In this document: piece after piece, positions 22,779 to 24,584 of the stretch
How the letters are laid out: every line of letters begins with the position of its first letter
Position numbering within the stretch: the first letter of the stretch is position 1
IMG/VR virus record: IMGVR_UViG_3300036944_000762
Location: 1-33,338 of that record
Strand: one strand, 5' to 3'
Source: a virus
DNA: 33,338 bases
The notes under the pieces: model-generated
The model's input: only the letters and a program-made list of their open reading frames with translations
Databases searched by the model: none
What the model was told of the DNA's origin: nothing
Made by a program: the position numbers and the translations under genes

Positions 22779-22818
22779 ACTACTGGATATTAGACAGTGT
22801 CTAATAAAACGTCTAATA
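22779..22818. repeat. Cluster of putative integrase arm-type sites (left of core)
   Basis: The 18-mer ACTACTGGATATTAGACA (22779-22796) also occurs at 23033-23050. Its end forms a perfect inverted repeat TATTAGACA-g-TGTCTAATA (22788-22806), and a further GTCTAATA occurs at 22811-22818, 12 nt from the previous copy. Several copies of one short motif around an att core fit arm-type sites bound by the integrase N-terminal domain. Confidence 0.65.
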
Positions 22819-22828
22819 AGCAGGCAAA

Positions 22829-22858
22829 GAAAAAGGGCCTTGCATCGCTGCAAGGCCC
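22829..22858 (-). terminator. Intrinsic terminator downstream of the tRNA-like segment
   Basis: On the minus strand a perfect 10-bp stem (GGGCCTTGCA with TGCAAGGCCC) closes a GCGA loop and is followed by TTTTTC. It could end integrase-operon transcripts, and after integration it would serve as terminator of the host tRNA-Asn. Confidence 0.88.
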
Positions 22859-23050
22859 GTATTCATTGGCTCCTCGACCTGGGCTCGAACCAGGGACCTA
22901 CGGATTAACAGTCCGGCCTCTAAACAACCATCTAGGCCGCATAAACATTGAGTTTTTATACTTTGTATGTCTTTTAAAACCATACGAAACAGGACATTTT
23001 TGCCACGCATTTATGCGGTTTGTCGATCTTGGACTACTGGATATTAGACA
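22859..23050. other. attP region (core in tRNA-Asn 3' half, right-hand arm site)
   Basis: The core (tRNA-like identity from about 22915 down to 22867) is flanked by arm-type repeats on both sides, 22779-22818 and 23033-23050. Between core and integrase lie a 9-bp inverted pair CCGCATAAA (22937-22945) and TTTATGCGG (23010-23018), and an AT-rich spacer suited to bending proteins. The right-hand arm repeat encodes the final SNIQ-stop of the integrase. Phage genes continue on both sides, so the site is uncut. The roughly 340 nt from 22693 to 23033 contains no other supported gene. Confidence 0.8.
22867..22940 (-). tRNA. tRNA-Asn(GTT) 3'-half-like segment in attP, probably not functional
   Basis: Read on the minus strand it holds a tRNA-Asn anticodon loop CTGTTAA, anticodon stem half TCCGT, variable loop AGGTC, a perfect T arm (CCTGG-TTCGAGC-CCAGG) and the acceptor 3' strand TCGAGGA-G-CCA. 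The 5' half does not fit: no TCCTCGA-like acceptor strand exists, and the anticodon stem has one mismatch (C opposite T). It is therefore best read as the phage-carried 3' half that rebuilds the host tRNA on integration. Confidence 0.7.
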
Positions 23051-24146
23051 TGGCCACAGCGTTGGCGATGGCTGTCTCTTGCCAGCGTTGCTTAACGTAA
23101 ATCTCGGTTGTGCTCTTGTCTTCGTGACCACAGAGGTGTTGGATTTGCTCGATGGGTGTGCCTTCTTGCCACATGTCTGTCGCGCCCTTGCCCTTGAGGT
23201 CACGAAAGCCAAAGCTCTGAATGAGCGGCAGGCCTCTCTTTGATCGATCTGTGTTTGCCTTCTTGAACGCTCTGCGCAGCATGGCGCTCAGGCCGTCATA
23301 GGTATAGGCGCTGCCATCGCGTGTGCGAATGAGTGGCTGGTGCAGCTTGGGCACATCGCCCAAGTTGTCACGAATCATTTTGTCAAGCGCGGGAGCAATA
23401 GCGATCTTCATGCGCTTGCCTGTCTTACCTTGCTTGAATTGCAGTTTGCGTTGACCGCCTTCGGTCAGCAATATGTCTGTGGTCCAGCCGATGATGTCGC
23501 TCTCGGGGCGTTGCAGTGTTCGGTAGGTGAGCTCCATCATCATGCGCACCGACGGGTGGGCAACTGCCCAAATGTCTTGGTAGTCTTCATGCGACACGTA
23601 GCGGTCACGCTTAGTTTCAGCGTTGCGTTTGATGCCGCTGGCACGTAGGCACGGGTTCACCACTAGCCCTTGCACTTTGCCTGTGCGAATTAGCCAGCTC
23701 ATGCAGCTGCTGAGCGCGGCTTTTTCTCTGTTGGCGGGCACTGGCCTGCCTAGTTCTGCATTCACATCTAGAAAGGCTTGCACGTTCGATGGTTCGACAT
23801 CGAGCGGCGTCATGGGTGGTGCAAAGAATTGGCGTAGTGCGCCTGGCTTTTTGTCAGTGCCTTTGATGGCTGATGTGTAGTCTTCAAGCGTGCGCTGAGC
23901 AAGTGAGCCAGTATCTACCCTATGTTGGCAGTCCACAAGGAACATGTCGAGCCAGTACACCATGGTGCCAAACTGTCCGTCTGGGTCGTTGTAGAGGCGG
24001 GCGCGTTGATTCGATTCTTCTAGGTCTACACCTAGTCGCTCCCATTTACCTGTGCGGTGGACGTAATAAAACGCCGCGTGCTTGATGTAAACACGGGGCT
24101 CAAGGCCAGAGTTTGTTGATTTGCGCTTGCGTCCCACGGGCTGCAT
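23034..24146 (-). CDS. int: Tyrosine recombinase integrase
   Basis: A 370-residue integrase with an N-terminal arm-binding/core-binding region (SAM-like around 60-160) and a C-terminal catalytic domain. Probable active residues are Arg213 (LQRPESD), Lys241 (QGKTGK), His341 (LCGHED) and the nucleophile Tyr350 (TTEIYVK). The usual HxxR box reads R315-D-L-K318, so both positions are changed; similar DLKGKGATD forms seem to occur in a betaproteobacterial phage subfamily, from memory. It integrates the phage at tRNA-Asn, given the attP immediately downstream. It is the last gene of the leftward operon, starting 2 nt after the stop of the DUF4224 gene begins to clear (one base gap). Confidence 0.93.
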   Translation of the reverse strand: MQPVGRKRKSTNSGLEPRVYIKHAAFYYVHRTGKWERLGVDLEESNQRARLYNDPDGQFGTMVYWLDMFLVDCQHRVDTGSLAQRTLEDYTSAIKGTDKKPGALRQFFAPPMTPLDVEPSNVQAFLDVNAELGRPVPANREKAALSSCMSWLIRTGKVQGLVVNPCLRASGIKRNAETKRDRYVSHEDYQDIWAVAHPSVRMMMELTYRTLQRPESDIIGWTTDILLTEGGQRKLQFKQGKTGKRMKIAIAPALDKMIRDNLGDVPKLHQPLIRTRDGSAYTYDGLSAMLRRAFKKANTDRSKRGLPLIQSFGFRDLKGKGATDMWQEGTPIEQIQHLCGHEDKSTTEIYVKQRWQETAIANAVAMSNIQ

Positions 24147-24147
24147 G

Positions 24148-24411
24148 TTAGGCGGCTTTCAGTGTTTTGCCAAACGCTTGGCGAAACTGAGCAATATTTG
24201 GCACAGCCTTACTTTGGCGGGGTGCTGGTTCATTCATTTGTTGAGCGCCTGAAAGCACTGCTTCGGCGTGCGAGCGCATCACCAATGGACGTCCACTTGG
24301 CTTGCTATGCACAGTTAGGCCCATGGTGCGGAGGTAGCGAATTTTCGCGGCGTTGTTGACAAGGCCTTCGCACAGGTTGTCAATTTCAGGGTCTGTGAGC
24401 CATGGCGTCAT
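24148..24411 (-). CDS. DUF4224 family protein, integrase-linked
   Basis: 87 residues beginning TPWLTDPEIDNLCEGLVNNAAKIRYLRTMGLTVHSKPSGRPLV in short pieces that match DUF4224 (WLTDxEIxxLCxGL, then RYL and GRPLV). Members lie just upstream of phage integrases and are proposed to be DNA-binding directionality or accessory factors; not proven. The stop is one base before the integrase ATG, and the start overlaps the preceding small gene by 4 nt. Confidence 0.85.
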   Translation of the reverse strand: MTPWLTDPEIDNLCEGLVNNAAKIRYLRTMGLTVHSKPSGRPLVMRSHAEAVLSGAQQMNEPAPRQSKAVPNIAQFRQAFGKTLKAA

Positions 24412-24584
24412 GATGCATCACCTTTACTTTTGTTGGTTTTGATCGTGTCGTGTATCTGGTCAAGCTCAGTTAATACAAGAACTAGCAAAAGCCACATGGC
24501 CAATTGCGGCTCCCCGTCACGAATGGATATTGCGCTGTAAAAAATGGTTCCCACGTAAAACAGGCATTGCATTATTTTTTTCAT
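24408..24584 (-). CDS. Small membrane protein (58 residues)
   Basis: A short gene with ATG 24584, GAGGGGTGAG ribosome site, and stop overlapping the DUF4224 start by 4 nt. The product has two hydrophobic stretches (CLFYVGTIFYSAISI and LAMWLLLVLVLTEL) separated by a short charged turn, followed by a Lys-rich tail. Exact ATGA overlaps on both sides make it credible despite its size. It would sit in the inner membrane; function unknown. Confidence 0.72.
   Translation of the reverse strand: MKKIMQCLFYVGTIFYSAISIRDGEPQLAMWLLLVLVLTELDQIHDTIKTNKSKGDAS

Follow-up and report, generated by a model that had tools for sequence, protein, structure and literature searches.

In phage lambda, five arm-type sites are distributed over the P and P' arms of the attachment site (PMC4880445). 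In the attP regions of mycobacteriophage Pixie and cluster K1, the core is a tRNA-Lys or tmRNA sequence flanked by repeats that are putative arm sites, with a terminator near the core, and residues 17 and 19 have been proposed to determine arm specificity on the basis of four close relatives (PMC3203893).

Here, we examined the region at 22779-23050 of a virus record of 33,338 bp, the whole of which is referred to as the window. We assign a probability of about 0.93 to the reading that this region is the intact attP of a temperate betaproteobacterial phage that integrates at tRNA-Asn by means of a lambda-type heterobivalent integrase and five arm sites. An earlier note, made from the sequence of the window, had proposed a lambda-like attP, and this reading is now supported by the prophage ends in relatives, the phased spacing of the arm sites, the covariation of arms and integrase, and the alignment to lambda Int, which includes the arm-binding domain.

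Anatomy of the attachment region

The region sits between the tail genes and the integrase gene (int), with lambda-type portal, head and tail genes to the left and the integrase and replication genes to the right (Table 1). The record is a metagenomic virus contig, and the region might on that account be taken for attL or attR of an integrated prophage. This is extremely improbable, since both arms are there, only half of the tRNA is present, and the region is bordered by phage genes left and right, with no host genes past either arm in the window.

Table 1. Features of the putative attP and the adjoining genes, in window coordinates
Feature	Position	Strand	Basis
Arm site D3, outermost distal, TGTCTAATATCCAGTAGT	22779..22796	-	Position and word class shared by the 27 loci that have a distal arm
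Arm site D2, TGTCTAATA, inverted relative to D3	22798..22806	+	D2 11-13 bp before D3 in relatives
Arm site D1, CGTCTAATA, 8/9 match	22810..22818	+	D1 22-25 bp before D3 in most relatives
Intrinsic terminator, phage-borne	22832..22859	-	Hairpin fold -21.9 kcal/mol, z -4.2
attP core, tRNA-Asn 3' part from anticodon-loop base C32 to CCA, 45 nt	22867..22911	-	Identity of prophage ends
Anticodon loop CTGTTAA (plus-strand TTAACAG), probable overlap region of strand exchange	22905..22911	-	Shared identity in L202/L203 extends 5' as far as this loop
Element X, TTTATGCGG, 34 bp upstream of the core	22937..22945	-	Conserved in relatives
Arm site P2, degenerate, GTCTTTTAA, 58 bp from the core	22969..22977	+	Position 56-59 in 43/44 loci
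Element X, second copy, inverted	23010..23018	+	Near -107 in a minority of relatives
Arm site P1, outermost on the int side, includes the last codons and stop of int	23033..23050	-	Exact repeat, spacing
Lambda-type tyrosine integrase, 370 aa, N-terminal arm-binding domain	23034..24146	-	PF00589; lambda Int by profile and fold
DUF4224-type protein, 87 aa, stop one base from int start; candidate excisionase	24148..24411	-	Homologue directly upstream of int in most relatives

The 18-mer ACTACTGGATATTAGACA is exact at both P1 and D3, on either side of the tRNA-Asn 3' part, as the earlier note had described. No third copy was found in the window even when 3 mismatches were allowed, there were 0 copies in shuffled sequence, and the number of exact 18-mer pairs expected in 431 bp is about 1e-6. 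The word TATTAGACA occurs three times (22788-22796 (+), 22798-22806 (-) and 23042-23050 (+); 0.04 expected), and the first two occurrences form the perfect inverted pair reported previously, with one central base between them. The further copy that had been placed at 22811 is present as CGTCTAATA, starting at 22810 and matching at 8 of 9 positions only. The count of three motifs to the left and one to the right was too low: there are three plus two, the fifth being the degenerate site P2, which is found where relatives have one. P2 in the window is only a loose match to the consensus (TAAAAGACA versus TATTAGACA, 7/9), which counts against our reading. Measured from C32, P1, P2 and D3 are located at 138, 58 and 117 bp, the last value being the start of the D3 core word GTCTAATAT.

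An inverted pair, CCGCATAAA/TTTATGCGG, at 22937-22945/23010-23018 had been overlooked in the earlier note. This element X (TTCATGCGG) was matched at 7 or more of 9 positions in 63% of the loci, nearly all at -34, compared with 7% of shuffles.

As had been claimed, a tRNA-Asn 3' half lies between the 18-mer copies; the tRNA in the window is a half only, because ARAGORN finds no complete tRNA there. The 7-nt anticodon loop is the probable strand-exchange overlap, its role and the cut positions being putative. The terminator that was previously included in attP is a strong hairpin, and it is carried by the phage: in the G001 prophage, the terminator that follows the intact tRNA-Asn is near-identical to that of the window, and the two prophage ends carry different terminators. 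We therefore rejected the terminator as a part of the identity block shared by attB and attP.

The catalytic domain of the integrase scored 52 bits against PF00589 (cut-off 27), with R213, K241, H341 and Y350 conserved. Lambda Int was the best match by both profile and fold and was matched from residue 1, with the N-terminal domain (N-domain) included, for which strands at residues 19-22, 25-29 and 35-39 and a helix at 42-52 were predicted in a model. Box II reads RDLK rather than HxxR, R315 and K318 standing in place of His-II and Arg-II according to the sequence alignment, and this too counts against our reading. Among 116 relatives, the His-II position was R or Y in practically all, and the Arg-II position was Lys throughout, in part by way of search patterns that covered this stretch.

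The right-hand 18-mer does double as the end of int, with P1 supplying the last codons and the stop (SNIQ-TAG, with TAG at 23036-23034). In many relatives, the stop falls within the arm word itself (GTC-TAA), and relatives with the word GTCTGA use TGA as the stop (L160, L161 and L065). In other relatives int stops slightly earlier and is followed by the site.

The DUF4224 gene is the best candidate for the excisionase; our literature search returned papers on excisionase without DUF4224 and none on DUF4224 as an excisionase. No acceptable consensus for an IHF site was found in the window, which is another point against our reading. Among 26 loci, 11 contained an exact IHF consensus between the tRNA end and the distal arms (0.08 expected), in most cases at a distance of 4 or 15 bp from the tRNA end, as did 2 of 15 host-side flanks. 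Because of these host-side occurrences and the lack of the consensus in the window, we suggest a possible role for IHF in the family only.

Prophage ends and arm spacing in relatives

Relatives were gathered by an integrase search and an alignment of ten integrases, resulting in 47 bacterial loci and some 80 viral ones. Among the bacterial loci that carry a name, almost all were from betaproteobacteria. Close relatives were not found among public phage and plasmid records, in which the integrase identity was at most about 35%.

The earlier note had suggested a search for prophages with matching attL and attR at tRNA-Asn, and these were found in six genomes, including that of the nearest relative. 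All six prophages have an intact tRNA-Asn and distal arm sites at one end and a 45-nt tRNA fragment beside int at the other. In the closest relative, a Comamonadaceae metagenome-assembled genome (MAG) with an integrase that is 88% identical, the two core copies are 41.2 kb apart. One end consists of an intact tRNA-Asn, a terminator nearly identical to that of the window and then three distal arm sites, and the other of the bare 45-nt fragment adjoining int, followed by host sequence. The same layout was observed in Pseudacidovorax NFM-22, a Gallionellales MAG, Variovorax IB41, Variovorax WS11 and a Methyloversatilis MAG, in the last of which just two distal sites are clear. The identity between the two ends covers the 45-nt block. 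In Variovorax WS11 it starts exactly at C32, and elsewhere it includes a few bases upstream as well. Integration into tRNA-Asn is evident in relatives, from which all of the prophage-end evidence comes, no prophage of the window's own phage having been found.

It was also noted that, within the 21 kb compared, DNA similarity between the window and the G001 prophage is confined to the core, int and the DUF4224 gene (22866-24428), and relatedness of the whole phages was therefore rejected over that distance. A candidate empty attB for the G001 prophage, L211, has an intact tRNA-Asn and a similar host terminator and contains no arms, but it is only suggestive because its upstream flank differs, and it was rejected as a syntenic site.

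Several genomes among G026, G028, G030 and other relatives of G001 contain more than one tRNA-Asn 3' copy, and the upstream junction in L212, L214 and L215 is a different one, GACGAGCCTGG. It is therefore probable that tRNA-Asn serves several integrase families as a hot spot of integration. Related integrases also adjoin tRNA-Lys-like or tRNA-Met-like sequences, as judged from anticodons read by eye (L116, L125, L069, L047, L049, L063 and L053), and most of these cores have the letters TTAATCCG in common.

For the spacing of the arms, we used 44 loci in which the tRNA-Asn core was located shortly beyond int or was readable at a prophage end, and in which the surrounding DNA could be read as an attachment site. 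Distances were counted from C32, and sites were placed with hand-checked word lists, which are a possible source of bias. P1 (forward) is located 126-131, 138-139 or 150 bp upstream, and P2 (reverse) at 56-59 bp in 43 of the 44 loci. Downstream follow D1 and D2 (both reverse) and D3 (forward), the latter at 114-117, 126-129 or 138-141 bp. P1 and D3 thus shift in steps of about 11 bp, equal to one helical turn; their phasing was equalled in 0 of 5000 random draws and, when only distinct values were counted, in 22 and 0 of 5000. In six loci (L047, L049, L050, L063, L090 and L102) int abuts the three-site distal array rather than P1, so that the orientation of int with respect to the attachment site differs between members of a single family.

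Furthermore, the distal arm of a locus fits the int-side arm of that locus better than it fits those of other loci under permutation (0 of 20000) in a set that includes some host-side ends; the palindrome filter of this permutation test admitted terminators as well as host-side ends, and the test was superseded by the hand-checked sites. Relatives with 50% to 70% integrase identity have sites in the same places, with letters that have changed in step. The identity of the two 18-mers over all 18 bp would be expected if a duplication or a gene conversion near the tRNA fragment had left the repeats behind without any function, but such coordinated change, with different letters in the same places, contradicts this explanation, the chance of which we consider to be next to nil.

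Arm words and the integrase N-terminal domain

The arm words differ between lineages (GTCTAA, GTCAAA, GTCCAA, GTCTGA, GTCTCA, GCCTAA, GCCAAA, ATCTAA, TTCCAA and GGCAAA), and within one attP the same letter change is found in most or all sites of both arms. In the nearest relative, for example, ATCTAA replaces GTCTAA in all five sites. An unbiased scan was made of N-domain residues 5-65 against the variable site bases; a tree of the rest of the protein and counts of changes were made separately. The top residue was 23 for base 1, 22 for bases 2 and 4, and 29 for base 5, and the association was complete for bases 1, 2 and 5, where residues 23, 22 and 29, respectively, each explain all of the variation. 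At residue 23, H/R/N/K goes with G at base 1, F/Y/A with A, and S with T; at residue 22, K/R/Q goes with T at base 2, N/S with C, and H with G; at residue 29, V/F/A/I/P goes with A at base 5, H with G, and R with C. Part of this covariation is due to shared ancestry. In the profile alignment, residues 22, 23 and 29 align with R19, N20 and C25 of lambda Int, and in the predicted sheet they occupy the ends of strands 1 and 2.

We next tested the rule on held-out loci that had not been used in deriving it and in which the sites were located by the constant half described below. Non-default predictions were correct in 13 of 14 cases, with 2/2 for base 1, 3/3 for base 2 and 8/9 for base 5, the base 5 set including the closely related loci L047, L106 and L107. 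The single miss, in L053, is a chance hit, and GTCTCATAT is found at the int end of this locus. The held-out locus L133 has a residue not seen before, D, at position 22 together with C at base 2, and it counts against the default for that reason.

The covariation of residues 22, 23 and 29 with bases 2, 1 and 5 suggests that the arms are recognized by the N-domain of the integrase. Since the repeats change in step with the DNA-reading surface of this domain, the repeated words around the core are very probably docking sites of the phage's own integrase. The palindrome of D2 and D3 and the overlap of P1 with the end of int might instead suggest that the words are operators, bound by a repressor or regulator that controls int or a neighbouring gene, and situated around attP by chance. 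We consider this very improbable, as the sites flank the core at a fixed or phased distance, vary with the N-domain residues of the integrase and are kept at the int-distal prophage end, about 40 kb from int.

The two outermost sites, P1 and D3, share a constant half, ATATCCAGTAG (22779-22789 and 23033-23043), of which there are no inner copies and which is roughly unchanged in many loci while the variable half differs across lineages. This pattern raises the possibility, to which we give less weight, that the outer arm words are composite, the GTCTAA half being read by the integrase and the ATATCCAGTAG half by a second protein or a second integrase contact. The constant half is gone in L011, L094, L150, L158 and L160, and is therefore not indispensable, and its inheritance without function is conceivable. 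Composite words would refine rather than exclude integrase docking at the arms.

The mechanism that we propose is as follows. The N-terminal three-stranded sheet would dock on five arm sites of the GTCTAATAT type, three past the tRNA end (D1, D2 and D3) and two towards int (the degenerate P2, and P1, which overlaps the stop codon of int). DNA bending would join arms and core, and the integrase would cut the shared 45-nt tRNA 3' block in its anticodon loop/stem part; the binding by integrase, the exact cut positions and the bending protein are what we infer. Upon integration, the host's own tRNA 3' half would end up beside int, and the tRNA gene would stay whole because the phage supplies a 3' half and a terminator.

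We consider it likely that this family is a natural record of changes in arm specificity in lambda-type integrases, with a code of residues 23, 22 and 29 and with sites and overlapping stop codon moving together. If the code is true, the N-domain of the window would favour its own set, GTCTAATA, and that of the 88% identical relative (L035) its own, ATCTAATA, while the H29 domain of L160 would be paired with GTCTGATA and the R29 domain of L148 with GTCTCATA.

Comparison with known attachment systems

The attP of the window is a genuine and complete compound attP of the lambda kind at tRNA-Asn, a good but ordinary example. In its relatives, arm words, integrase reading surface and stop codon appear to have evolved together several times, with distances shifting by whole helical turns. 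The family offers a code for arm recognition by the arm-binding domain that can be tested directly, for which the only precedent found is a small one (PMC3203893). It also provides a sequence rule by which attP sites, and the tRNAs used for attachment, can be located for uncultured phages of betaproteobacteria.

The system resembles that of phage lambda in that the integrases align from residue 1, including the arm-binding domain, and in having five arm-type sites on two arms. The lambda arm words contain GTCA..AT, which is close to GTCTAATAT and GTCAAATAT. Unlike in lambda, the core in the window is tRNA-Asn, two of the three distal sites are palindromic, box II of the integrase is RDLK and a good IHF consensus is lacking, and in most loci int adjoins the arm with two sites, its stop codon being within or close to P1. 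As in tRNA-integrating prophages generally, the phage carries a tRNA 3' part and the gene is restored by integration, but the family adds a terminator of its own and has arm arrays that can be compared over about 60 loci. Repeated putative arm sites, a terminator near the core and proposed specificity residues in the N-domain are shared with Pixie and cluster K1, which comprise only a handful of phages and have a different layout.
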